From: Magnetococcales bacterium
GTDB taxonomy: Bacteria > Pseudomonadota > Magnetococcia > Magnetococcales > Magnetaquicoccaceae
NCBI GenBank assembly: GCA_015231915.1
Contig: JADGAR010000025.1
Span: 1 to 48,446, forward strand
DNA: 48,446 nt
Reading direction: 5' to 3'
This document shows, piece by piece, positions 22,007-38,000 of this stretch (position 1 is the stretch's first letter; every line of letters starts with the position of its first letter). The translations under genes were made by a program, and so were the position numbers. The notes beneath the pieces were generated by a model. That model was given only the letters and a program-made list of their open reading frames with translations, did not search any database and was not told where the DNA came from.

Positions 22007-23284
22007 ATGCAAATTACTGGCATGAAATGGGGGGCCAAGTTACTCAAGTATGTCGATTTCCCGACCGCTGAGATACTTGGCCCGGAAGCGTCACCGGAAG
22101 AGATCCAGGCCTTGATCGACAAATGGGGTGGCTGCCTGATTAAACCTATTTTCAAGGGTGGAATCGGTAAAAAGGGCAAAGCCGGTCTTGTGGGCAAAGC
22201 GACCGACCTGCGCACCGCCCTCAAGGAAAAGGAACGGCTCTATTTTGCAGAACACACCCATGGAAATCAGTCATCCAAGTCCGAAGGGGTCACTTTTGAG
22301 AGCTTCGTGAAAGCAGAACACGAAATTTATGTCTCCATCACGGACAATACTCAATACCGCGCCCCCACCCTGACCATTACCCACCATGGCGGGATGGACA
22401 TCGAGGAACTGCCCTCCCACCAAATTGCGGTGGTGCCATTTGATCCGTTGACCGGATTGAAGGGCTTTGTCATTTCCAACGCTCTGGACAAGATGAACGC
22501 CCCGAACGAAATCCTCAGCCCCCTGGTGCAAAACATCACCAAGCTGTGGGATCTGTTCAACAATTACGGTATGACCACCCTGGAGATCAATCCGATCCGC
22601 ATCTACCGCGATCCGGTATCGAAACGCCTGATCCCCATGGCCTGCGACTTCAAGTGCGCCTTCGACGGCGACGACCGCAACTCCAAACGCCTCAATCTGC
22701 CGGCCAACCTGGACAACACCAATCTTTCCGAATACGAACTGGAGGTCAATCAGCTGCGGACCTATCAGGGCCAGTCGGACGTGTATGTCATCAATCCCGC
22801 CGGGACCATCACCGCCATGACCTTCGGCGGCGGTGCCAACGCCCTGGTGACCGAACTGCTGGGAGACCGTGCCACCATCTCCTCCGACTTCGGCGGCAAC
22901 CCCCCCTACGCCAAAATGAAGCAGATCAGCGACATCACCTATCGGCACTGGCTGCCGCAAACCAATGTCCTGTTCATCATCGGCGGCAAGGCCAACAACA
23001 CCGACATCTACGAAACGTTCCGCGCCATGGGTGACGGTCTGCGCACCTATTTCAACGAACGCGGCCCCACCCCATTGTTCGTGGTGGTGGGACGCGGCGG
23101 TCCCAATCTCATTCAGGGCATGGGCTACATGAAGGACACCCTCGATTCGCTGGGGTTGCCGCATGCCATGTTCGGTTACGACTCTGCCATGAGCGAAGTG
23201 ATCAACTATGCCCAGGCGGTCGATGAATGGATGAGAAATGGCGGACGGGAAGTGATCGCCAAAAAGCTTGGCGTCAAGAAATAG
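22007..23284 (+). CDS. aclB: ATP citrate lyase, ATP-grasp (small/beta) subunit
   Basis: A 425-residue subunit corresponding to the ATP-grasp and CoA-ligase beta part of ATP citrate lyase. ACL splits citrate to acetyl-CoA and oxaloacetate with ATP and CoA in the reductive TCA cycle. The N-terminal part has the ATP-grasp pattern (GGCLIKPIFKGGIGKKGKAG and later TTLEINPIRI). The C-terminal part is a succinyl-CoA-synthetase-beta-like domain with FTFGGG-type MTFGGGANAL and VVVGRGGPNLIQGMG. The match to human and Chlorobium ACL order is clear by eye. The gene precedes the large subunit by 38 bases and follows a terminator, so aclB-aclA form one unit. The leading G/C content is lower over the first 150 bases than in the rest. 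Confidence 0.9.
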   Translation: MQITGMKWGAKLLKYVDFPTAEILGPEASPEEIQALIDKWGGCLIKPIFKGGIGKKGKAGLVGKATDLRTALKEKERLYFAEHTHGNQSSKSEGVTFESFVKAEHEIYVSITDNTQYRAPTLTITHHGGMDIEELPSHQIAVVPFDPLTGLKGFVISNALDKMNAPNEILSPLVQNITKLWDLFNNYGMTTLEINPIRIYRDPVSKRLIPMACDFKCAFDGDDRNSKRLNLPANLDNTNLSEYELEVNQLRTYQGQSDVYVINPAGTITAMTFGGGANALVTELLGDRATISSDFGGNPPYAKMKQISDITYRHWLPQTNVLFIIGGKANNTDIYETFRAMGDGLRTYFNERGPTPLFVVVGRGGPNLIQGMGYMKDTLDSLGLPHAMFGYDSAMSEVINYAQAVDEWMRNGGREVIAKKLGVKK

Positions 23285-23322
23285 GCCGAATCGTTGAGCA
23301 ACTAACGGGAAAGAGGTATTCC

Positions 23323-26091
23323 ATGCCATCATTTCATACACAGCCCCGTGAAGGGCAAAATTTCATGCTGCCCCGCGGCGAGAAGGAATTTCCCTATTTT
23401 GTGGGCATTCACTCGCTGGCCGACATGGCCACCAAGGAAGACCGGGTATGCGTTCTCAACATCCTGGGAGGCGAAAGCACCACGGTCACGCCGATCAGCC
23501 ATGAGTATTCCGGGGGCAACATCGTCTGCGGCGTGATGCCCGGACGCTCCGGCTCGGTGATGAAGACCAAGGTGGGCGACATCCCGGTCTACAACAACGT
23601 GCTGGAGGCCATCAACGACGGCAAGCGTTTCAACGTGGCCGTGGTCTATGTCCCGCCGGACGGGGTGAAGGACGCGGTGATCGAGGCGGTGCGTGTCAAT
23701 CCCGACCTCAAGAAGGTGGTGATCCTGACGGAAAAGGTGAAGGTGAAGCATGCCCGCATGATCCGGCAGTATTGCCAGTGGCGTGGCGTGGACGTGTTCG
23801 GCGCCAACTGCCTGGGGATCGGCGATGCCCACAACCATGTCCGCATTGGCGGCGCGCTGGGCGGCAACGCCCCGCACGAGTCCCTGGTGCCCGGGTCGAT
23901 TGCCCTTTATTCCAACTCCGGGAACTTCACCACCACCATCGCCACCTATCTGCTGACCGCCGGTTGGGGGACCACGGTCTCCCTCTCCTCCGGCAAGGAT
24001 GTCTACATCCATTTCGCGGCCCCGGAATTCACCCACGCCATGCACAACGACGACCGCTCCAAGGCGGCGGTGATGTACATCGAGCCAGGTGGATATTACG
24101 AGAAGGACCTGGTCTTCCAGAAGCCGGTGGTGGCCTGCGTGGTGGGCCGCTGGAAGGCCAAGCTGACCCGCTCCTGCGGCCATGCCGGGGCCATCGCCGG
24201 TTCCGGCGACGATGCGGCGGCCAAGGAGAGGTGGTTCATGGAGAAGTTCGGGGTCAAGGCGATCTTCACCCCGGAGACTCCCGCCTGCTCGGCAAAGGGC
24301 GCTGTGGTGACCAACATCGCCCACATCCCGCAGGCCATGACCTCGGTCATGATGATGAACGGCATCCGCCCCGACTTCGAGCCGCGGGGCAATCTGGCGC
24401 CCAAGTGCTGGTTCTTCAGCCCGCAGGATATCGAACTGCCCAAGGAGCTGCAATTGCCGGTGGTGGAGGCCCTGGAGCCTTACAACCAGCAGATCGCGGC
24501 GTTGGGCAGGCAGGTTGGTGCGATCTTCCCGCGTCAACCGATGAAGGATTGCTCCGGCGCTTCGCGCATGGACGCGGCCACCCAGGTTTCCCAGCTGCAT
24601 GGGGTGAGCGTTCTGGATGCGGCCACGCATACCCTGGAGGAGAATCTTGTCCTCGCCCTGATCCGCGAGTATCCCAACGCCATGGGCGCGGCCATGGCCA
24701 ACGTGGCCATGAATGCCTTCGTCAACCAGAGCGGCACCACCGGCCTGCTGGCCGCCGATGCGGCGCGGGAGGCGGGGAGCAGCCCCAACGTGGTGCTTTC
24801 CACGGGTGTGGCCATTGTGGGTCCCAACGAGGTGAAGCCGGCCCGTGAAGCGGTGCAGGCGTTCATCGATCTGTTCGGCATGTCGGGCATGACCGATCCG
24901 GCCAATCTCTCCTTCGATCTGCAGCCGGTGTTGGCCAGGGCCTCCCAGGATGGGATCCGGGAGCGTCTGGTGGGCAGCAAGAGTGGCAAACGTGGCAAGG
25001 CCATGCTGACCGCTTTGGAGAATCGGGGTTGCAAGTCTGTGTTTCTGGAGTTCCTCAAGGCCCTGACCGACGGTGTGGATGGCGGGTTGCGGGACAGCAC
25101 GGTGCTGGCGGCCATTTGTTGCCATCTGGGCTGGCGTCCCCTCATGAAGCGGCGTCTGTCGGTGACCACCATGCTGGCCATGCCGTGGCATTTTCGTATT
25201 TTCAGCACCCTGGTCGGGTGCGTGGTGCCTTCGGACAGGCAGGACAAGAAGGCGTTCCAGGGCGTGGATAACGGGGAGTTGATGGACTCCTGGAGCTTCA
25301 CCGAGACCGCGTTTCTGGCGTTGTTGGGTCGGCGTCCCACTGAGGAGGAGTTGTTCGGGTTTTCCGTCTTGGTGGGCTTGCTGGTCACTAATGGTCCGGG
25401 GACCATCTCCGCGCAGGGTCCCAAGGGTGCGGTCAGTGCCGACGGTCCCATGGACCCAGGCCGCATTCAGGTCAACAAGGGCTATATCGGTTTCCTCACC
25501 CACACCGGGTATGCCCACGGCGGCAACGGCTACGAGGCGATCGCGTTTTTGATGGAGCGGTTCAAGGATTCCGGTCTGACCGATCCGGGCAACCCGAATC
25601 ATGGCCTGAATCTGGACGCCATGGCCATGGCCTTCGCCACGGAGTACAAGGCGTACAAGGCCAAGGCCAAATTCGCCGGGAGCATGGATTACGCCAAGAT
25701 CCCGTGCGTCAATCATCCGGTCTTCAAGGGCAAGCCGGAGAACTTCGACCCTCGCGAGGTGTTCGTGGACAATCTCTTCAAGGGGAGAAAGTCCTACAAC
25801 ATCTTCCAGGATTTCTATCATCGTCTGGTGCATGCCTTGTTCAAGAGCGGGATCAGCACCAACGTCTACTGCGTCAACGTGGATGCGGTGATCGCCGTGA
25901 TCCTGCTGAAGATGCTGTGGAAGCCTTATGCGAACGGGGAGATCACCGCCTCCGCCCTGGAGAGCGCCGCGTTCACCACCTTCCTGTTCGGTCGCATGAT
26001 CGGCTCTGCCGCAGAGATCGACGATCACACCAACCGTGGCCGTGACATGGATACCCGTACTGCGGCCAGCGCCTGTTCGTTCGTGTCGTAG
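23323..26091 (+). CDS. aclA: ATP citrate lyase, large (alpha) subunit, enlarged form
   Basis: A 922-residue subunit, about 300 residues longer than the usual AclA of around 610. Residues 1-350 form the CoA-binding and succinyl-CoA-synthetase-alpha part, with the phosphohistidine H287 in CGHAGAI. The C-terminal citrate-synthase-like domain (about 650-922) retains the catalytic histidine H798 (CVNHPVFKG) and aspartate D854 (CVNVDAVIAV). The intervening segment, roughly 420-640, is additional; its pattern (ALIREYPNAMGAAMANVAMN, then STGVAIVGPNEVKPAREAV) looks like a degenerate second citrate-synthase-like copy. In the active domain the TADHG-type motif of ordinary ACL is replaced by TNGPG. ATG 23323 is chosen because the open frame upstream overlaps aclB. 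To my recollection a divergent ACL of this kind is known in Magnetococcus. Confidence 0.9.
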   Translation: MPSFHTQPREGQNFMLPRGEKEFPYFVGIHSLADMATKEDRVCVLNILGGESTTVTPISHEYSGGNIVCGVMPGRSGSVMKTKVGDIPVYNNVLEAINDGKRFNVAVVYVPPDGVKDAVIEAVRVNPDLKKVVILTEKVKVKHARMIRQYCQWRGVDVFGANCLGIGDAHNHVRIGGALGGNAPHESLVPGSIALYSNSGNFTTTIATYLLTAGWGTTVSLSSGKDVYIHFAAPEFTHAMHNDDRSKAAVMYIEPGGYYEKDLVFQKPVVACVVGRWKAKLTRSCGHAGAIAGSGDDAAAKERWFMEKFGVKAIFTPETPACSAKGAVVTNIAHIPQAMTSVMMMNGIRPDFEPRGNLAPKCWFFSPQDIELPKELQLPVVEALEPYNQQIAALGRQVGAIFPRQPMKDCSGASRMDAATQVSQLHGVSVLDAATHTLEENLVLALIREYPNAMGAAMANVAMNAFVNQSGTTGLLAADAAREAGSSPNVVLSTGVAIVGPNEVKPAREAVQAFIDLFGMSGMTDPANLSFDLQPVLARASQDGIRERLVGSKSGKRGKAMLTALENRGCKSVFLEFLKALTDGVDGGLRDSTVLAAICCHLGWRPLMKRRLSVTTMLAMPWHFRIFSTLVGCVVPSDRQDKKAFQGVDNGELMDSWSFTETAFLALLGRRPTEEELFGFSVLVGLLVTNGPGTISAQGPKGAVSADGPMDPGRIQVNKGYIGFLTHTGYAHGGNGYEAIAFLMERFKDSGLTDPGNPNHGLNLDAMAMAFATEYKAYKAKAKFAGSMDYAKIPCVNHPVFKGKPENFDPREVFVDNLFKGRKSYNIFQDFYHRLVHALFKSGISTNVYCVNVDAVIAVILLKMLWKPYANGEITASALESAAFTTFLFGRMIGSAAEIDDHTNRGRDMDTRTAASACSFVS

Positions 26092-26298: not shown

Positions 26299-28044
26299 TT
26301 AATCCTGTTGTGTTTGTTTACGCCATCCATTGACAGCCGCCGGAATCGAGTTGACTGGTGTACCCTTGGACCAGGCATCCCAGAAAGCGACGGTTCCGCT
26401 ATTCGGACGAGCTTTAGGCTCAGCGATTCGGGTACGGGTTGGCAGAAGGCTCGCATCACCCACCACCAGGGCCTCACCGGTATCCAAGATGGGCAATAGA
26501 TCGCTGAAACCGCCCAAGCTGTCCGGGAGGAGTCGTCGCACGACGCTTTGATCCTCGGCATTGGTCAAGCGCATCGCTATCAGGTTGTTACACTGGCTGA
26601 GAACCGTTCGATTGACTTCCGAGGGACGCTGACTGATCACAACGAGACCAACGCCATATTTACGCCCCTCCTTGGCAATGCGTTCAAAAATAGAGATGGA
26701 TATCTCGCTGGAAGCATCACTTTGCGCGCGTTCTGGCATATAAAGGTGCGCCTCATCACAGAAAAGGGCAACCGGATGCCGTTTTCCCGGCGGAGTCCAT
26801 TGCTGAAGAGTAAATACAAGCTTTGCGACAAGACTGACTATCAGTGGAAGGATATCCGAGGGCACTTCGGAGAAGTCGATCACCTTCACGCCACCTTTCT
26901 TGTCAGGCTGTTCCTGGCTGCCGCCGACAAGCATCAGACAGAGCTTTTCCAGCCATTCGAACTTCATAGTCTCGGCACCGCCTTGAAAGAGAAAACCAAG
27001 CCGACGATCTGTCCGCTTATTCTCCAATCGGGCTACCAAGCGGCTCAATTTACCATAAAATTCTCCTTGTTTTTCACCTCTAGATCCTTGCTCCATCTTC
27101 GTATTTAATTGGTTTAGCGTTCCAACCACTGAATCGAAATCAAAAGGGACCGGACTGTCAATTGTAAAATTATCAATAAGATCATTGCGGAAAATTTTTT
27201 CAAGAAAATTTTTCTTTTCTTCTATAATCGTCCTTGATATAATCATAGTCTGATTAGGGGCATTTTGATCGCTGCTCTCGACAAACATGGAAATCATGGC
27301 TTCATAGCCCAAAAGCCAAAAGGGCAAATAGACAATACCATTCTCTAGATCTGTGCCTTGCTCAAGATCTCCTGGACCGGCAATGCGAAAGTGCCGGACA
27401 CCATTACCATCAAGTGTGGTGTACTCACCGTGAAGATCAAAAACGAGCGCATTCGCTCCTGGCAATTCGGCAACCTGCTCAAGAACACTCGCTGTCGTCC
27501 ACGACTTTCCCGAGCCTGTACTGCCAACGATGATCGCATGGCGTTGAAAAAACTTGTTACCATTCAAATATGCCTTGGCTCGCTCATCCAACGTATAAGT
27601 TCCAAGAGTCAACCTTTGTCCGTCATTCGCGATATTAGCAATGATGCGCATAAATTCAGTCAGGTTGTCTCCTTCAATAGCAAAACAGTTTGCATCAATT
27701 TCCGGCACGGTCTCCAATGTTCGCCTAAAAACATTTTTCTCGGTTCCTTTCCGGTCACTGTGCGTACCGATCAAAACGATGCGCACGATATTCTCCTCAG
27801 GCCACTGATTTTCCTCTGCATCTGTATATTCACCAATAAATTTTGCTTCTTTCATTGATCGCATGATTTTTTGAATGAAGCCGATTAAATATTCTCCAGC
27901 CCGACTGCTTTGCAGTGCGACAAGCCGGTTGACTTGCATGCGTCGCAGTTTCTCCACATCGTCAGCACGAACCACTACCATGGCAGTATCAACTGCGATG
28001 ACTGTCCCCAAGGCATCCGTGTCCTCATAGTTGAAGATCGTCAT
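26299..28044 (-). CDS. HerA-like ATPase of a SIR2-HerA defence pair
   Basis: A 581-residue HerA/FtsK-type DNA translocase. The N-terminal HAS-barrel-like domain (about 1-95) is followed by the ATPase with Walker A GSTGSGKS (174-181), Walker B VALFCDEAH (DEAH 430-433) and the sensor/arginine region ISQRPSEVNRTVLSQ. In SIR2-HerA systems HerA forms a hexamer that binds the SIR2 protein and controls its nuclease and NAD-consuming activity during phage infection. The start lies one base after the SIR2 stop, and AAAGGAG inside the SIR2 gene end gives it a good ribosome binding site. The gene is AT-richer than the flanks, a sign of horizontal transfer. It ends convergently with the acl operon. Confidence 0.9.
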   Translation of the reverse strand: MTIFNYEDTDALGTVIAVDTAMVVVRADDVEKLRRMQVNRLVALQSSRAGEYLIGFIQKIMRSMKEAKFIGEYTDAEENQWPEENIVRIVLIGTHSDRKGTEKNVFRRTLETVPEIDANCFAIEGDNLTEFMRIIANIANDGQRLTLGTYTLDERAKAYLNGNKFFQRHAIIVGSTGSGKSWTTASVLEQVAELPGANALVFDLHGEYTTLDGNGVRHFRIAGPGDLEQGTDLENGIVYLPFWLLGYEAMISMFVESSDQNAPNQTMIISRTIIEEKKNFLEKIFRNDLIDNFTIDSPVPFDFDSVVGTLNQLNTKMEQGSRGEKQGEFYGKLSRLVARLENKRTDRRLGFLFQGGAETMKFEWLEKLCLMLVGGSQEQPDKKGGVKVIDFSEVPSDILPLIVSLVAKLVFTLQQWTPPGKRHPVALFCDEAHLYMPERAQSDASSEISISIFERIAKEGRKYGVGLVVISQRPSEVNRTVLSQCNNLIAMRLTNAEDQSVVRRLLPDSLGGFSDLLPILDTGEALVVGDASLLPTRTRIAEPKARPNSGTVAFWDAWSKGTPVNSIPAAVNGWRKQTQQD

Positions 28045-28045
28045 A

Positions 28046-29110
28046 TTAAACTCCTTTATAATCTATAGTATTTTCCAAAAACCCTTTTAAACTCCAAAGA
28101 TCGATGTTCGGAAGCATCTCTCCTTTTGGATAATTATTTGATAACATGAATGTACCTGTCTTGGATTCCTCAAAGGCCAAATATGGGGCGTCCTTTGCAT
28201 CTTGCAGCATCTGTTTTGCTGATTCACTTAATTTTTTTGTAAGCATAACCAACAATACATCATTTTTTTGCCATCTTCCTATAAGTTTTGGACAAATGTG
28301 AGTATCATTAAATCCAAAACCGATACATAAGAAGGCATTTGCTTTTGATAGCACTTCATCAGCACTAGAAATGATGGTGCGAAAAGGTTCTAAATGTGTT
28401 TGTAGATATTTTTTTATTCCTGGAGTAACAATAGCAGGTCGACAGTTTGGTGGAATCTCTTTGGCAGAAGTAATAGCAACAACATTATTATTGGGATCTA
28501 TAAACCAATCAAGGCAACCATGCACTTTCCAAATATTGATCATACGAGAAGAAAGGCGTTGATAATGCTTAGGAATCTGCTGGCGTTCAAAAGACCATTG
28601 CCGCACATACCCATAGCCGAAGCCTTTGAAGTGTGAAAATCCTGCCATGTCGGATGCATACTCTGCCAACCGGTCATAGTTGGGCGTCACAACAGAGAGA
28701 ATTTTGTTTGTGCTTTTAAATAAATATTTATAAAGTTTTATTAAATTTAAAATTATATTATTATCAATAATCTCTGCAAATACTTCTGTATCTTTTTGAC
28801 ACACCTGCACCCATGTATCCTGCACCACACGATCAAAAAGCGGTTCTGAAAGCTCGTTCTCCTGAAGCGCACTTTCAAGGTCTTTACTGGCGAGCAAGCC
28901 AATGAATCTTTTCCATTGATTCTGCTCGACATCGGACAACTTATTATCAAATTTCAATTTTTTCAATGAATTCGCCAGATCTCCCATGCTCGGCAATCCA
29001 TAGGGAATTGAGGCACCACTTCCCAGCACGATCAAAGGAAACGCTTTGAGACATCTCTGGCCCTCCTGAATCGCAAACTCGGTTGGTTGCACGGAAGGCT
29101 TGCTTCTCAC
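28046..29110 (-). CDS. SIR2-family protein of a SIR2-HerA defence pair
   Basis: A 354-residue SIR2-like protein. The NAD-binding motif is GSGAS (30-34, in VLGSGASIPYGLPS), the catalytic asparagine/aspartate pattern is TPNYD (142-146) and the catalytic histidine is H197 in KVHGCLDW. Stand-alone SIR2 proteins paired with HerA act in antiphage abortive defence by NAD depletion and DNA cleavage. The GTG at 29110 is used: GGAG lies 9 bases before it, and upstream in-frame ATGs run into a stop. The low GC content contrasts with recD next door. A likely promoter and an operator-like palindrome lie at 29154-29192. Confidence 0.9.
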   Translation of the reverse strand: MRSKPSVQPTEFAIQEGQRCLKAFPLIVLGSGASIPYGLPSMGDLANSLKKLKFDNKLSDVEQNQWKRFIGLLASKDLESALQENELSEPLFDRVVQDTWVQVCQKDTEVFAEIIDNNIILNLIKLYKYLFKSTNKILSVVTPNYDRLAEYASDMAGFSHFKGFGYGYVRQWSFERQQIPKHYQRLSSRMINIWKVHGCLDWFIDPNNNVVAITSAKEIPPNCRPAIVTPGIKKYLQTHLEPFRTIISSADEVLSKANAFLCIGFGFNDTHICPKLIGRWQKNDVLLVMLTKKLSESAKQMLQDAKDAPYLAFEESKTGTFMLSNNYPKGEMLPNIDLWSLKGFLENTIDYKGV

Positions 29111-29467: not shown

Positions 29468-31462
29468 TCACAACCAAGCATCCACCCGCTGCCCCACCAC
29501 GCGACGGGTGACCGCCTGTTCCAGCAGACGGGCGTCCGAGGCGCTCGCCAAAGAGAAGCCGTCGCGGGCACGGGTGATGCCGGTGTAGATCAGCTCGCGG
29601 GTCAGAACAGGATGGAAACGATCCGGCAACACCAAGACCACCTGCGCAAACTCCGAGCCTTGCGACTTGTGTACGGTCAGGGCATAGACCGTCTCCACCT
29701 CGGCAAGACGGGCCGGGGCGAACCAGCGCACCCCGTCGGGACCAGGAAAGACCACCCGTGTCACCCAACCCCCGGCAACCGGCACCTCCAGCGTGACGCC
29801 AATGTCACCATTCATCAGGCCAAGATCATAGTCATTGCTGGTGACCATCACCGGACGGCCCGCATACCAGCCTTCCTCGGCGGGGATCAGTCCGGCGGCG
29901 CGCAAATGCCGGGCAATGCGCCGGTTCAGCCCCTCCACCCCCCAGGGACCCTGCCGTATCGCACACAAAACCTGAAAACCGGCATGGGCGCGCAACACCA
30001 TGGCCCCCCAGCGATCCAGGGCCGCACGATCCGCATCCCCGGCAGGTCGCTGCCGCGCCATGGTCTCCAGATAGACCCGATACCCACCGCGTCGCCTTCC
30101 CCGGCCATCCTCTCCATCCACCGTCAGATCCCGCAGGATCCCCTCCCCGGCAGCCAGCGACACCCAGCTCAACTCCGGACACCCCTCGCCCCAAAGCGTC
30201 TCCATGGCCGCCGTATCCCCCCCGTTGACCGCCATGGCCAGACGCCCGATGCCGCTGCCCGCCGCAAACCGATAGGTATCCCGCAACATCACCACCGCCT
30301 GATCCGGCAAACGCCCCTCCGGGTCGATCCAGCTCTCGTCCAACTCCTGGCCGCAGGCCCGGCTCAGCCACTCCCCGATGGCAGGGGTGTAATGCCCCCC
30401 GGCGGCCCGCCGACACAGCTCCCCCAGGGGCGATCCCGCCTCCACCGCAGCCAGCTGGTCCTTGTCGCCCAGCAACACCAGCCGCGCATCGACCGGCAAC
30501 GCGAGCAACACGGCGGCCAACAGCTCCAGACCCACCATGGAGGCTTCGTCGATGACCAACACATCGATCCACAAGGGATGATCGGCATCGTGGCGGAAAT
30601 GACGGCTGTCGCGACGGCGACCCATGAGCCGATGCAGGGTCGTCACCTTGCGGGGGATCGCGGCAAGCGCCCGCTCCCGCAAGGCAGGATCCCGCCAGGT
30701 CAGTTTGCCGATGGCATCGGCGATGGACTCCCCCAGGCGGGCCGCCGCCTTGCCGGTGGGGGCGGCCAGCCGGATGCGCAAGGGGCGTCCGTCTTGCGCC
30801 AGGGACAAGGTCTGCAACAAAGCCAGCAACCGCGCCACCGTGGTGGTCTTGCCGGTGCCGGGACCGCCGGTGATCACCCCGAACCTCGACCGGGCCATCA
30901 GGGCGCAGGCCACCTTCTGCCAGTCCACGCCAGGCCGCCCGCTGTCTGGCCAGATCTCCTGCAACGCGTCCAGCACCTCCCCGGGCGATGCCTCCCATTC
31001 CCCAGGCCGGGTCAAACGTGCGGCAATCCCGGCGCGCACCTCCTGTTCGCACTGCCAGTAACGGCGCAGATAAAGCCGCGTTCCAACCAGCACCAGCGGC
31101 GCGCGTGACGCCTCCTGGCCGGGCATCTCGGCCACCAGCAGGGAATTTCGCATGCTCTCCCGCCAGGAGGCCGCATCCAACCCGGCAAGGCGCGCCGCCG
31201 GCAAATCCCCATCGCCGGGGTCCGGGTCGGCTGCCCCTGGAGGGGGAATCCCCAAAGTCAGCGCAGGATCCCGCGTCACGACCGCCAGATCCATATGGGT
31301 CTCGCCCCGCCCGGCAAGATGGCTGACCAGGGCGGCGGCAAGCAGCAGCCGGGGATCGGCATCCGGGACCTCCTGCCGCAACAGGCCCGCCAACGCCGCA
31401 TCCACCGGACGCAACCATCCCCGCTCCACCCACCGGTTCGGCAGCTCCACGTCCACGGACAT
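29468..31462 (-). CDS. recD: Exodeoxyribonuclease V alpha subunit (RecD)
   Basis: A 664-residue superfamily 1B helicase that moves 5' to 3' in the RecBCD enzyme. The Walker A motif GGPGTGKTTT is at about residues 193-202, DEAS motif II is in VLVIDEASMVG, and the C-terminal UvrD-like part includes YALTVHKSQGSEF and TGITRARD. Length is normal. The ATG at 31462 overlaps the recB stop (TGATG); a GTG one codon earlier at 31465 is possible too. It is the last gene of bcp-mutM-recC-recB-recD. Confidence 0.95.
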   Translation of the reverse strand: MSVDVELPNRWVERGWLRPVDAALAGLLRQEVPDADPRLLLAAALVSHLAGRGETHMDLAVVTRDPALTLGIPPPGAADPDPGDGDLPAARLAGLDAASWRESMRNSLLVAEMPGQEASRAPLVLVGTRLYLRRYWQCEQEVRAGIAARLTRPGEWEASPGEVLDALQEIWPDSGRPGVDWQKVACALMARSRFGVITGGPGTGKTTTVARLLALLQTLSLAQDGRPLRIRLAAPTGKAAARLGESIADAIGKLTWRDPALRERALAAIPRKVTTLHRLMGRRRDSRHFRHDADHPLWIDVLVIDEASMVGLELLAAVLLALPVDARLVLLGDKDQLAAVEAGSPLGELCRRAAGGHYTPAIGEWLSRACGQELDESWIDPEGRLPDQAVVMLRDTYRFAAGSGIGRLAMAVNGGDTAAMETLWGEGCPELSWVSLAAGEGILRDLTVDGEDGRGRRRGGYRVYLETMARQRPAGDADRAALDRWGAMVLRAHAGFQVLCAIRQGPWGVEGLNRRIARHLRAAGLIPAEEGWYAGRPVMVTSNDYDLGLMNGDIGVTLEVPVAGGWVTRVVFPGPDGVRWFAPARLAEVETVYALTVHKSQGSEFAQVVLVLPDRFHPVLTRELIYTGITRARDGFSLASASDARLLEQAVTRRVVGQRVDAWL

Positions 31463-34400
31463 CACCCCCCTCCCCCGCCGGGCGCACCCCGGAACATGGC
31501 ATCCAGCTCCTCGAACAGCCCTTCTGGCGGACGCATGGTGATCAAACCCTGGCCGGGCGCGGCAAAACCCCGCATGAACAAACAGATCGCCCCGCCCATG
31601 TGGGTGTCGAACCGATAGCCGGGCAGCCGCTCCCGCAGGTGCCGATGCAGCGCGAACTGATAAATCACCCCTTGCAGGTCATAGCGTGCATGGCACATGG
31701 CGGTCTCCAGCGCCTGCGGGACATAGGCGGCATCCCCGGCTCCCAGGCGGTTGCTCTTGTAGTCCACCACGTAATGACGCCCCTCGTGCTCCAGGACCAG
31801 ATCCATGAACCCCTTGAGCATGCCGTTGAGCATCTTTTCACCAAGCGACGGACGCGGCTGGCCCGGCAGAACATGCGCCCGAATCAAGCGGTCCAGGCGG
31901 TCGGCCCGCACCCGCCGCGCGGGCAACCAGAACTCCATCTCCGTTTGCCACGCCGTCAGCGCGGACAAACGGAGCGGCCCGGCCCCGGACACCCCCCACG
32001 GGGTGGTCACGATCCGCCCCAGCCACTCGCACAGGGTCTCATGCCACGCCTCCCAGCCGCGCATCCGGCAGCGCCGCTCCACCATCTCCCGCAACCCGGC
32101 GGGATCCTCGGCCACATTGCGAAACCCCCGCAGCGCCATCCAGCCCAGCAACTCGTGGAGAAAGGTCCCGGCCCTGGCCCCGCGCGGAAAGGCGTGCGGT
32201 CCCTGGCCCTGCCCGCAGGGTTCTTCCTCGAAAACCGCATCGATTTCATGAAACACCTCCTCGACCGGGGTCTCCGGCGCCTCCCGCGTCCCGGTGCGGG
32301 TGCGCAGCCAGGAGTAGCTGCCGATGGACCACGGCTCCCGCGCCACCCGCGCCGAGCGGCGCGCCTGGCCGATGGGTTGCAGCCGCTCCGGCGGCTGATA
32401 GACCGTCCCGCCCTCCTCCGGGGCCTCGACGACCCGGATCGAGGCATCAAGCCCCTGCAAATCCACCAGACCGCCCCTCCCCAAAAGACGGCCCAGGGCG
32501 CTATGCTCCAAAGCGGCGGGCGGGGCCATCCCCACCCAGGTGGCGAAGCGGGCGCGGGTCAGGGCGACGTACAGCTTGCGCATCTCTTCCCGCAGCCACT
32601 CTTTGGCCACCCGTTCGGCCACCCCATCCCCCCCGTCGAAGGCCACGTGCCGCTCCCCCTGCTCGTCCCGCCAGATCAGCGGATAGGTGGGATTCCGCCG
32701 CGTCCCGATGGCAAGCGGAAAAAAAACCAGCGGATACTCCAGCCCCTTGGACTTGTGCACCGTGACGATGCGCACCAGATCGGCATCGCTTTCCAGGCGG
32801 ATCAGCCGCGCCTCCTCCCCTTCCGCGTCCCGGGCATCGGTCAGGCACTGCTCGTCCAGATAACGGATCAGGGCCTGCTCCCCTTCCCGCGCGGCAATGC
32901 TGGCCTGCAGCAACTCGGCCAGATGCAAGAGATTGGTCAGGATCCGCTCCCCGCCGGGGACCGTGTCGCCAAGCAGCCGCTCGGCCACGCGGAAATCCCG
33001 CAGCAAACCGCGCAGCATGGGCAACACCCCGCGCCCGCGCCACGCCTCGCGATAGCCGTGAAACCGCCGCATGGCCGCCTCCAGGGCCTGCTCGTCCCGG
33101 TTCAGGGCCTCGATCTCCTCCCAGCTGGCCCCAAGCGTCCCGGTGGCCAGGGCGGTCTTCAACAAACGGGGATCCTCCGGCATGGCGCAGGCGGCCAGCC
33201 AGTGACGCAGCTCCACGGCCTGCGGGGTCCGATACACCGACTCCTTGTCGGACAGATAGACCGAGCGCACCCCATGGGCCATGAGCGCCTCGGCCATGGC
33301 CAGACAGTGCCGCCGGCCATGCACCAGCACCGCCAGGTCCGCCGGGCGCAGGGGCCGCGACTCCCCGTCATCGCTCACGAACGCCGCCCGGCCCGTCCGA
33401 CCGGATTCCAGCAGACATGCGATTTCGTGGGCGCACCGTCCGGCCATCTCCCGCAGGGCCTCGCTGCTGGTCCACACCCCCGGCCTGCCGTCGGGCCGTT
33501 CCGGCGGGGGGGGCAGCTGCCAGAGGGTCAGGGCGTTGTGCTCCCTCCCCTCCACCAGCAAACGCTCTGCGCGGCCCCGCGCCGTGGCTGGCAGAAACGG
33601 AATCGGATCCTCCTCGCCGCTTTTGTGCAGAAAAGAGTCATCGGACAGGCCGAACAGGGCGTTGACCGCCTCGACCATGGCGGTGGTGGAGCGGTAGTTG
33701 GTCCCCAGGGTGTGAATCCGGCCCTTGCAGGCCCGCCGGGCCGCCAGATAGACATGAATGTCCGCGCCGCGAAAGGAGTAGATCGCCTGCTTGGGATCCC
33801 CGATCAGGATCAATGCGCCCTCTGTCCCCTCCGGATAGACCAGGGAAAAGATCCGGTACTGCACCGGATCGGTATCCTGAAACTCGTCGATCATGGCCAC
33901 GGGAAACTGGGTGCGGATGACGGCGGCCAGCCGGGCGCCGTTGGCGCCGCCCAGGACTGCCGCCAGGCGTCCCAGCACGTCGTCGAACTCCATCAGGGCC
34001 AGGCGTTCCTTTTCGCTGGCGAAGCGGCGGGCGATCCAGCGCACGGCATGCCCGAGCACCAGGGGATGACGCCGGGCCAGGGCTTCGCGTTGCAGGCGCA
34101 TTTGTTCCAGGTCGGCCAGCGCGGGGTGGCTCAAGGGCCGGCCCCGGTTTTTCTTCAAGGCGTCGGCCATCCCGTCCGGGGTCAGGCGGTTCCAGGCGGT
34201 GGCATCCAGTTCCGGGACCGCGCGATGGGGATTGCACGCCCAGGCCGTCAGGGCGTCCAGCCATTTTCTCCAATTGTCGTTGGGAAACAGATTCCCCTTG
34301 AGCGCCCCGACCGCCGCCTGCTCCTCGAACCAGGCCAGCAGCTCCGGCAGCCATTTTTGCCAGTTTTTTTTCACCCGTTCCATGGGCAGGGCGTTCGCAT

Positions 34401-35049
34401 CCGGCACAAAGGCCGCCGCCGGCTCCAGGGTGGCGTCGATCCGCTCCGCATGGGAGAGCAGGGGGCGCACCCCGGCCAGCAGCGCCGCCACGTCCGGCCA
34501 GCACGTCAGGGCGTTCTGGGCCGACGCGGCATCCAGGGGGGCGAGAAACACCCGCCAGTAATCCCGCACCGCCTCTTCCAGCAGGGCCTCCTGCATGGGG
34601 ACCAGTTGCTGAGAAAACAGGCTGTCGCTGTCGAAGGCGTGTTCCCGCAGCATGCGGTTGCACCAGCCGTGGATGGTGTCCACCGCCGCCTCGTCCATCC
34701 ACTCGGCGGCCAGTTGCAGCCGGCGGGCGCAGCCGGGCCAGGCAGCGGCGGGATAGGCGTCACGCAGGGCGACCAGCAAGGGATCGGGAAGCGTTTCCTC
34801 CCGAAAGCAGGCAGCCGCCTCGGCGAGCCGCAGCCGGATCCGGTCGCGCAGCTCACGGGTGGCGGCCTTGGTGAAGGTGACCACCAGGATCTCCGGCGGA
34901 TCGCGGGGCGGCAGGGACGTGCCATGGCCCAGCACCAGCCGCAGGTAGAGCATGGCGATGGTATAGGTCTTGCCCGTGCCTGCGCTGGCCTCGATCAGTT
35001 GGCGGCCATGCAGGGGAAAAGCCAATGGATCGACTTCCGGGGGATTCAT
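31462..35049 (-). CDS. recB: Exodeoxyribonuclease V beta subunit (RecB)
   Basis: A 1195-residue helicase-nuclease. Walker A is ASAGTGKT (21-28). Helicase motif II is in MIDEFQDTDPVQYRIF, later motifs include HKSKGLEYPLVF and LYVALTRARF, and the C-terminal RecB nuclease has VVDYKSNRLG near residue 1095. It processes double-strand breaks and degrades linear foreign DNA together with RecC and RecD. The open frame extends upstream to 35307 inside recC, but ATG 35049 gives the family start and overlaps the recC stop (ATGA). Confidence 0.96.
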   Translation of the reverse strand: MNPPEVDPLAFPLHGRQLIEASAGTGKTYTIAMLYLRLVLGHGTSLPPRDPPEILVVTFTKAATRELRDRIRLRLAEAAACFREETLPDPLLVALRDAYPAAAWPGCARRLQLAAEWMDEAAVDTIHGWCNRMLREHAFDSDSLFSQQLVPMQEALLEEAVRDYWRVFLAPLDAASAQNALTCWPDVAALLAGVRPLLSHAERIDATLEPAAAFVPDANALPMERVKKNWQKWLPELLAWFEEQAAVGALKGNLFPNDNWRKWLDALTAWACNPHRAVPELDATAWNRLTPDGMADALKKNRGRPLSHPALADLEQMRLQREALARRHPLVLGHAVRWIARRFASEKERLALMEFDDVLGRLAAVLGGANGARLAAVIRTQFPVAMIDEFQDTDPVQYRIFSLVYPEGTEGALILIGDPKQAIYSFRGADIHVYLAARRACKGRIHTLGTNYRSTTAMVEAVNALFGLSDDSFLHKSGEEDPIPFLPATARGRAERLLVEGREHNALTLWQLPPPPERPDGRPGVWTSSEALREMAGRCAHEIACLLESGRTGRAAFVSDDGESRPLRPADLAVLVHGRRHCLAMAEALMAHGVRSVYLSDKESVYRTPQAVELRHWLAACAMPEDPRLLKTALATGTLGASWEEIEALNRDEQALEAAMRRFHGYREAWRGRGVLPMLRGLLRDFRVAERLLGDTVPGGERILTNLLHLAELLQASIAAREGEQALIRYLDEQCLTDARDAEGEEARLIRLESDADLVRIVTVHKSKGLEYPLVFFPLAIGTRRNPTYPLIWRDEQGERHVAFDGGDGVAERVAKEWLREEMRKLYVALTRARFATWVGMAPPAALEHSALGRLLGRGGLVDLQGLDASIRVVEAPEEGGTVYQPPERLQPIGQARRSARVAREPWSIGSYSWLRTRTGTREAPETPVEEVFHEIDAVFEEEPCGQGQGPHAFPRGARAGTFLHELLGWMALRGFRNVAEDPAGLREMVERRCRMRGWEAWHETLCEWLGRIVTTPWGVSGAGPLRLSALTAWQTEMEFWLPARRVRADRLDRLIRAHVLPGQPRPSLGEKMLNGMLKGFMDLVLEHEGRHYVVDYKSNRLGAGDAAYVPQALETAMCHARYDLQGVIYQFALHRHLRERLPGYRFDTHMGGAICLFMRGFAAPGQGLITMRPPEGLFEELDAMFRGAPGGGGG

Positions 35050-38000
35050 GGCAGGGCCTCCCCGCTCTTCAGCAGAGGACGCAGCAGGCGATCCGCCAGG
35101 GTGGCGAACTCCCCGCTTTCGGTCAGGGCCGTAAAATCCGGATAGACCAGGGGCAGATGGGGGCCGCGCATCCGCTCCCCCTCGCCCCCCCGTGCCGGCT
35201 CCTCGCCGGTGCCCTCGTAGGTCGAACGCGCCTTTTGCTCCCCTGCCGTCAACCAGGTCAGGCCGGTCTCCGGGGCCAGGGGCAGGGGGCGTTGCATGCC
35301 CGACCACCAGGCCTGCAGGAGGGCGGCAAGGTGTTTTTCAGCCAGCTCCCGGTGCAAGGGGCGCAGCTCGATGCCGCCCTTTGCCCCCAGCAGCAGCGTG
35401 GTGACGGCACCATGGGCGAGATTCAGCGCCAGGTGCTCCACCCAGGCAACGATGGCCCGATGGTAATGGCAACCCGCCTTGTCCACCAGCGTCCCGGCCA
35501 TGGCCATCACCCGGCCCGCCTCCCCCGAGGCGGCGATGCGCGGATTGGCCACCCGGTCCTCCAGCCCGATCCATGCGCCGGGTTCCACCTCCACCCGCAG
35601 CACGACCTCCACCTCCCCGGCCCCCGGCAGTGGCCAACGTGTCAACCCCTCTGCCTGACGCGCGGCCAGCTCCTCCAAAGGGGCGGCCAGATGATCGGCG
35701 AAGACCCGTCCGCACCCCCCTTCGGCCAGATCGCCCCGCAGCCGGATCCGTTCCAGGGCCGCAGCCCGCGCCGCGCCGACCGCCTCGCCTTGTTCCAGCG
35801 CCCGGCCCTGACAACGGATCAGCTCGTCCAGAAGCCGCCAGCGCTCCAGGGCGTCCGGCGCGAAAGGCTCCTGGTCCCCGGCAAAAGGATCGCCACTCTC
35901 GAAAAACACCCCCAGCCGCTCCTGATAAAAGGCGCGCACCGGATCCTTGAGAAACCGGGCCAGATCGAGCAGGGTCAGGGGTTCCTCCCGCGTCACCGGC
36001 GGCAGAGGCCGGTTGTGAGACGTCACGCACTCCGGCCCGCCTGGCCGCCACTCCCGGGCATAGGTGAAAAACGGGGAGTCCGGTTGGGCCGGAGTGGCAA
36101 AATAATCGCGGCTGAAGGGTTGCAGACGATGCTCGACGGTGAGCGCCCCCAGGAGGTCGCCTCCCCCGGCCAGCCGCCAGCCTGCCGCCAGGTGCTCCCG
36201 CAACCGCCCCACCAGCACCGAGGGCGGCGCCACGGAGTTGTCGTGGATGCTCCTGCCCACCCAGGAGACGTACAGAAGCTCGCGGGCCGACAGCAGCGCC
36301 TCCAGAAAGAGATAGCGGTCGTCCTCCCGGCGCGAGCGGTCCCCCGGACGACGGTTGCGGGCCATGAGGTCGAAATCCATCGGGGTCGTGGGACGGGGAA
36401 AGGCGCCGTCGTTCATCCCCAGCAGACAGACCTGCCGGAACGGAATGGCCCGCATGGGCATCAGGGTGGCGAAAGTCACTGCCCCGGCGAAAAATCCCTG
36501 GGACAGCCCGCCCTCATCGATGCTCGCCAGCCAGGTCTCCCCCACCACGGAGAGGGGCAGCGGTTCGCTCAGGCCCGCCTCCTCGCACGCCTCCCGCCAC
36601 GGCTCCAGGGCGGCCTCCAGTTGCAACAGGGTATACCCCTCCTCCCCGTCGTCCGGAAGAAAGAAGGTGTCCAGCAAGGTGCGCAGACGCTGGCACCATT
36701 CGCCGACCGGAGCCGGCAGGCTGAAGCAACGCCAGGTCTCCTCCAAAGCATCGATCAGCCGGATCAGGGCACCCAGCGGACGGACGCAGCCGGCGTCGAT
36801 CTCGTCGTAGGGATCGATCCCCCGCCAGGGATGACCCCGGTCGCCCACCGCATACCCCAACAGCATGCGCCGCAACCCGAAGCGCCAGGTGTTGCGGGAC
36901 TCCTCGCCGTGGATTGCGCCCGGCAGACCCAGGGCGGCCCGATGCTCCCCGTGCAAGCCCCAGCGGATGCCGGAACCGCGAATCCAGCGATGCAGAAGCG
37001 GCAGATCCTCGGCGACGATGGCGAATTTCCGGCGCAGGGCCGGCAGCTCCAGCCAATCGATCAGCTCGCTTGCCGTCAGCCGGGAGCCGGGCAGGGCCAG
37101 CAGCCGCTCCACCGCGCGCAGCAAGGGATCGGCCCCGCGCCGCGCGCGATTGACGATCACGAAGGGGATGCGGCGCTCATCCGCAGGGTGATGCAGCCCG
37201 AACACGGCCTGAATGTGGGCGGCGTACTCCTCGATGTCCGGCACCATGACCAGGATCTCCCTGGGGGTGAGGGTGGCATCGGCGTTCAGGGCCGCCAGCA
37301 GCTGGTCGTGCAGGATCTCCACCTCGCGCAGCGCGCCGTGGGCCACGTGAAAACGCAGCGAGCGGTCGCGACTCGGGTCCACCGCCGGCCAGGCCTCCCG
37401 GGTTTCGTGCAGGGGGCGCAGCTCGTGGATGTCGTCCTGCAACTGCTGCAACAGCGTAGCGGCCTCTTCCCCGGCAAGCTCGAAACGCTCCGCGCGTTCC
37501 ACCAGGTCGAAGCCGTCGCTGGCCAGTTCGTCCAGCAGGCCGATGAAGTCCCGGCCCTGTCTGCCCCAGGCGGCCAGCAGCGGCTGGGCGTGCAGGTGCA
37601 AAAGCTCCCCGGCGACAACGTCCGGAAAGCCGGGACGCGCCTTCGCGCCCGCGCGTCCGGCGCGCAGCAGCTCCCGTTCCGGCACGATGTCGGCCCAATA
37701 GTACTGACAGGGATTGTGGATGTACATCACGACCCGGGTCCAGCGGCTCAACACCAACAACACCTCCAGGGACTGCCTGGGCAGGGAGGTGATGCCGAAC
37801 ACCGTCACCCGGCGCGGCAGACCGGGGGGCCGGCGTTCGTCGCCCAGCCTGCCGGCATGGCGCAGAAAGGCGGCGTGGACCTCGGCGCGTCCGGCGTGAT
37901 GGCCCATGGTGGTGCGTTCCACGTCCGCGAGGAGGGCGCGCCAGAGGGCGGGCTGCCAGCGCTGTTCCTCAGGCAGGGGTTCCCCTCCCCCGCGGGCGTC

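Follow-up and report, generated by a model that had tools for sequence, protein, structure and literature searches.

Organization of the locus

The window analyzed here is a stretch of 48,446 nucleotides from a metagenome-assembled Magnetococcales genome (assembly GCA_015231915.1, contig JADGAR010000025.1), in which two neighboring genes on the forward strand encode the small and large subunits of an ATP citrate lyase (ACL)-type enzyme. The first (positions 22007–23284, +) specifies an AclB-type protein of 425 residues with ATP-grasp and citrate-binding domains, as recognized by Pfam (ATP-grasp_2, 2e-16; Citrate_bind, 4e-16). The second (23323–26091, +) translates into 922 codons without a stop and was identified as the AclA-type subunit from its open reading frame, its Pfam and PDB matches and an alignment with 27 relatives. 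Its ATG lies 38 bp downstream of the end of the AclB gene and is preceded by the sequence AAAGAGG (23310–23316, +), which on direct reading resembles a ribosome-binding site. An alternative start at the upstream ATG 23227, giving a protein of 954 residues, was rejected because it would overlap aclB, which ends at 23284; this start is also opposed by several close relatives (L003, L004), in which the open frame holds no start codon upstream of the 23323-equivalent. The large-subunit gene is present in one copy in the source genome. With 922 residues, the protein exceeds by about 300 residues the counterparts from Sulfurovum (600 residues) and in PDB entry 6hxj_B (617 residues), and the remark in the initial annotation that it is oversized relative to a normal length of ~610 residues is therefore upheld.

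Directly downstream of the ACL genes, two adjoining reverse-strand genes (26299–28044 and 28046–29110, −) encode HerA-like ATPase and SIR2 proteins (PADLOC E-values of 4e-239 and 1e-114), a predicted pair resembling the SIR2-HerA anti-phage defence pair. Beyond them, open reading frames for a RecD-like (665 residues) and a UvrD/RecB-like (1281 residues) helicase (29468–35307, −) suggest a recBCD-type cluster beside the putative defence genes.

Distribution and assignment to type II ACL

Among the records compared, the closest match to AclA is 96% identical (WMHbin3), and full-length relatives at 66–96% identity are found in most of the Magnetococcales, including strain UR-1 (L022, partial). 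A genome-contig scan with exact peptide patterns returned only Magnetococcales. One Magnetococcales genome holds an ortholog pair of the same length with 67% (AclA) and 74% (AclB) identity, and same-length relatives at 51–57% identity are carried on plasmids of Microvirga, Sinorhizobium, Paraburkholderia, Gemmobacter and Polymorphobacter, where they adjoin an AclB-type gene in every annotated region examined.

An AclA-type subunit of ~900 residues, its position next to an AclB with ATP-grasp and citrate-binding domains, and full-length homology to Magnetococcales proteins of that name identify the gene pair, at the level of sequence, as the postulated "type II" ACL. According to the passages found, UR-1 is the strain of the paper that gave the Magnetococcales proteins this name, type II ACL corresponds to Mmc1_3638/3639 in Magnetococcus marinus MC-1, and citrate cleavage was detected in MC-1 even though genes for classical ACL, citryl-CoA synthetase (CCS) and citryl-CoA lyase (CCL) are absent (PMC6783814); the divergent ACL that the initial annotation mentioned for Magnetococcus is this enzyme. 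Passages in two further papers place type II ACL in tubeworm symbionts and some Chromatiaceae as well (PMC3522073; PMC6315080).

The synthetase module resembles citryl-CoA synthetase

Residues ~33–325 of AclA (23419–24297, +) constitute a succinyl/citryl-CoA synthetase alpha-like domain, defined by the Pfam families Succ_CoA_lig and CoA_binding. Among PDB entries, this N-domain matches the CCS small subunit best (6hxq_A, 9e-32, vs 9e-9 for ACL, 6hxj_B), and AclB matches the CCS large subunit best (6hxq_B, 2e-32), followed by ACL (6hxi_A, 1e-23). Alignments place AclB Asn331 (22997–22999, +) at the position of Phe347 in human ACLY, the surrounding motif reading ANNTD in AclB, ANNT in CCS, ANFTN in ACLY and ANFTD in the other ACLs compared. 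Both subunits thus resemble CCS more than ACL, given the matches to 6hxq and the Asn at position 331. His287 of the GHAGA motif (24181–24183, +), the phosphohistidine predicted from its enzyme family, and Glu254 of the same module are both invariant in the 27 relatives.

Phylogenetic analysis of the N-domain grouped type II with CCS (support 99/99), whereas the tree placing type II with ACL had a p-AU of 0.149 and could not be rejected. Descent of type II from CCS, as opposed to ACL, is accordingly not asserted firmly here; with the long branches and this p-AU value in mind, an origin from CCS, and hence an independent fusion, is the favoured reading of the sequences. In a Pseudomonadota genome (G001, contig C7), locus L087 has individual genes for CCS large, CCS small and CCL that follow one another; its CCS small protein is 36% identical to the AclA N-domain, and its CCL has Ala at the DHG His.

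The C-terminal domain retains a citrate-synthase-type catalytic set

The C-terminal residues 629–922 (25207–26088, +), hereafter copy 2, form a citryl-CoA lyase-like domain that is predicted to be catalytic. In hhalign, copy 2 matched a CCL profile built from citryl-CoA lyase-like proteins at 21 genomic loci (prob 97.3, E = 2.1e-11), and residues 643–870 matched the citryl-CoA lyase model NF004869 (1.7e-7). A citrate synthase (CS) profile gave weak hhalign matches to copy 2.

A joint alignment identified four catalytic-type positions, all of them invariant in the 27 relatives: His732 of HGGN (25516–25518, +), a His of the citrate-synthase/CCL type; His798 (25714–25716, +), at the position of ACLY His975; Arg811 of DPRE (25753–25755, +), an Arg conserved in CS, CCL and ACL; and Asp854 (25882–25884, +), at the position of ACLY Asp1026. 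The initial annotation had named His287, His798 and Asp854 as present, and each holds up. Beyond its list, two positions of copy 2 deserve attention. The HGG His represented by His732 is shared with CS and 13 of the 21 CCL-like proteins and is Phe in the two ACLs compared, and the position of ACLY His900, occupied by His in CS, ACL and 20 of the 21 CCL-like proteins, is an invariant Asn in copy 2 (Asn690; 25390–25392, +). With Asn690 replacing a nearly universal His, the lyase chemistry of copy 2 may differ.

Eight proteins matching the CCL model (L065, L071, L073, L074, L075, L077, L078 and L080) have neither the HGG His nor the catalytic Asp. Judging from these residues, a citryl-CoA lyase annotation may in some cases hide a protein with other chemistry.

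An additional lyase-like domain without catalytic residues

The initial annotation had proposed that residues 420–640 are a duplicated, non-catalytic lyase-like copy. An extra unit does exist, but its bounds are better placed at ~398–628 (24514–25206, +; copy 1), with a profile match over 425–613, and it is preceded by a conserved linker (321–398). No Pfam family matched residues 340–640 in a single-sequence HMM search, and phmmer matches of the segment to integrin beta-8 in the PDB were judged to be due to chance, as neither profile nor fold searches supported them. We compared profiles built from the alignment of 27 full-length relatives, six of which are plasmid proteins, using non-overlapping segments (residues 395–628 against CCL and against 629–922). 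Copy 1 matched the CCL profile colinearly over 183 columns (score 52.3, prob 92.5, E = 4.8e-7; 19% identity) and its own C-terminal domain with a score of 52.9 (E = 4.7e-7), these and the other hhalign E-values being those of single comparisons. The maxima from 100 column shuffles were about half as high (28.9 for CCL and 24.7 for copy 2), and the controls scored lower still (reversed profiles, 13.8 and 12.2; N-domain windows, 18.4). No hhalign match of copy 1 was obtained with small profiles of ACL (2 sequences) and CS (5 sequences), and therefore the relationship passes via CCL.

Structure prediction points in the same direction. An AlphaFold2 model of residues 331–922 (17 sequences, pLDDT 64) returned a Foldseek list headed by citrate synthases and CCL. 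For copy 1 modeled alone (residues 400–639; pLDDT 73, pTM 0.72), all 50 matches listed belonged to ACL, as the lyase module or as the complete enzyme, to CCL, or to citrate and methylcitrate synthases, with probabilities of 0.94–1.00, query TM scores of ~0.4–0.5 and a best E-value of 4.6e-3 among the matches listed. The models are thus of modest quality, yet the matches listed are confined to one superfamily. In a tree of lyase domains, copies 1 and 2, both on long branches, fell on one side of a branch (97/94) from CCL, ACL and CS, as expected for an internal duplication. Together, the profile comparisons, the fold comparison and this grouping support the proposed duplication.

None of the catalytic positions is preserved in copy 1; in the protein encoded here, Gln469 stands at the first and Glu503 at the second, a deletion runs through the GHR motif and no invariant Asp is found. 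By these residue criteria, copy 1 is a homologous domain that is predicted to be dead as a lyase. It is nevertheless under purifying selection despite the lost catalytic positions. The full-length relatives contain no internal stops, and dN/dS over residues 418–628, calculated for seven pairs, was 0.03–0.14; it exceeded the value for copy 2 in six pairs and matched it in the other, but stayed far below 1. Conservation is lower in copy 1 (mean majority 68%, 9% of columns invariant) than in copy 2 (78% and 29%), and at least one relative (G089) carries an insertion around residue 540, where copy 1 is variable. The exception is a near-invariant stretch at residues 404–417, RQxMKDxSGASxMD (24532–24573, +), detected by column conservation; across residues 402–417, the mean majority is 89% and 62% of columns are invariant, vs 9% in the remainder of copy 1.

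Metabolic setting

ACL has a key role in the reductive TCA cycle. The source genome encodes two KorA/PorA-like 2-oxoacid:acceptor oxidoreductases, and RuBisCO was not detected in it. A separate, full canonical citrate synthase, GltA, is encoded in the same genome (L060, G000:C89:41179-42276), so both directions of citrate metabolism appear to be encoded. The combination of KorA/PorA-like enzymes, GltA and no detected RuBisCO would fit a reductive TCA cycle that operates alongside the oxidative one.

The plasmid-borne pairs of Microvirga and Gemmobacter (L054 and L056) lie near genes for a tripartite tricarboxylate transporter and an acyl-CoA thioesterase, with either a two-component regulator or TcuA/TcuB and 4-oxalomesaconate tautomerase as further neighbors. 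This gene context suggests that type II ACL-like enzymes may also be used in tricarboxylate catabolism, outside carbon fixation.

Discussion

We consider it probable that type II ACL is a CCS fused to a tandem pair of CCL domains, the dead first member of which serves as an intramolecular partner of the second. The reaction, the two-site mechanism and the pseudo-dimer are all inferred. AclB and the AclA N-domain would convert citrate, ATP and CoA to citryl-CoA via phospho-His287, and copy 2, using His732, His798 and Asp854, would then split citryl-CoA into acetyl-CoA and oxaloacetate, the products feeding the reductive TCA cycle. Lyase domains of the CCL and citrate synthase type normally dimerise. 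Copy 1, a tandem lyase-domain duplicate no longer equipped for catalysis, would most likely pack on copy 2 as a covalent pseudo-partner in place of one subunit of the lyase dimer, and its RQxMKDxSGASxMD stretch could possibly be lent to the active site or the CoA site. A more far-reaching reading, which we regard as rather unlikely, gives the dead copy a function of its own, contributing residues to the copy 2 site or binding CoA or a regulator, takes Asn690 as a sign of shifted chemistry, and makes type II ACL a CCS joined to a pseudo-heterodimeric CCL that is convergent with ACL.

In one current view of human ACLY, cleavage takes place in the synthetase domain, with Phe347 as a key residue and the citrate synthase homology (CSH) module acting allosterically, and the CSH module has been argued to load CoA and release acetyl-CoA (PMC10115795). 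By analogy, copy 1 could be mainly an allosteric or CoA-handling module that binds CoA or a regulator beyond supporting copy 2, a possibility that draws on the work with ACLY-D1026A (PMC10115795) and on the far better conservation of residues 404–417 relative to other copy 1 residues. We think this unlikely, as Phe347 is replaced by Asn in type II AclB, and copy 2 has the full citrate-synthase-type His/His/Asp set that ACLY does not. Because type II lacks Phe347 but has this triad, we favour the lyase domain as the site of cleavage.

Two other explanations concern the role of the enzyme and the origin of the extra segment. That type II ACL is not mainly a citrate lyase of the reductive TCA cycle, and serves in some carriers for the catabolic use of citrate or a related tricarboxylate, would fit the heterotroph plasmids, on which its relatives lie beside tricarboxylate transporters, a thioesterase, the tricarballylate genes TcuA/TcuB or 4-oxalomesaconate tautomerase. 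These neighbors, however, would fit citrate as the substrate too, and both the oxidoreductases and missing RuBisCO of the source genome and the citrate cleavage reported for MC-1 in the passages found (PMC6783814) argue against it, so that we hold a mainly catabolic role to be quite improbable. Least plausible of all, and in our judgment very improbable indeed, is an unrelated helical insertion at residues 398–628 that resembles a lyase by chance: the missing Pfam family, the spurious integrin matches and the 19% identity to CCL would be expected of such a segment, but not profile scores roughly double the highest reached by 100 shuffles, colinearity over ~183 columns or 50 listed fold matches within one superfamily.

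If the preferred reading, a tandem CCL pair with a dead first member, is true, an internal pseudo-enzyme accounts for the size of type II ACL, for which no account was found in the literature covered, although the enzyme has had its name and served as a marker gene for more than a decade. CCS and CCL may then have given rise to fused citrate cleavage on two occasions. Type II ACL would also become a natural comparison in the dispute over the site of citryl-CoA cleavage in ACL (PMC10115795), because it has neither Phe347 nor His900 of ACLY but does have the citrate-synthase-type triad.

Comparison with known systems

The type II ACLs of MC-1, tubeworm symbionts and Thioflavicoccus comprise the same gene pair in the same order as here. 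The enzyme type is thus already known; the passages found call it novel, putative or postulated and do not describe tandem lyase domains. Our literature search, which did not extend to key reviews, returned no description of this architecture, which may have been noticed earlier. Canonical ACL (Chlorobium AclBA, human ACLY) shares the phospho-His synthetase-like part and the C-terminal citrate-synthase-like lyase domain, but its large subunit has ~600 residues and one lyase domain, as opposed to 922 residues and two lyase-type domains here. ACLY His900 and Phe347 correspond to Asn690 and AclB Asn331, and the two ACLs compared have Phe where His732 of HGG stands here. CCS and CCL of Hydrogenobacter, by contrast, are separate proteins without a second, degenerate lyase domain; it is nonetheless CCS (6hxq) that provides the best PDB match of both subunits, and the CCL profile that best matches the lyase domains. 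Citrate synthase (GltA) belongs to the same fold superfamily and has the same His/His/Asp set as copy 2.
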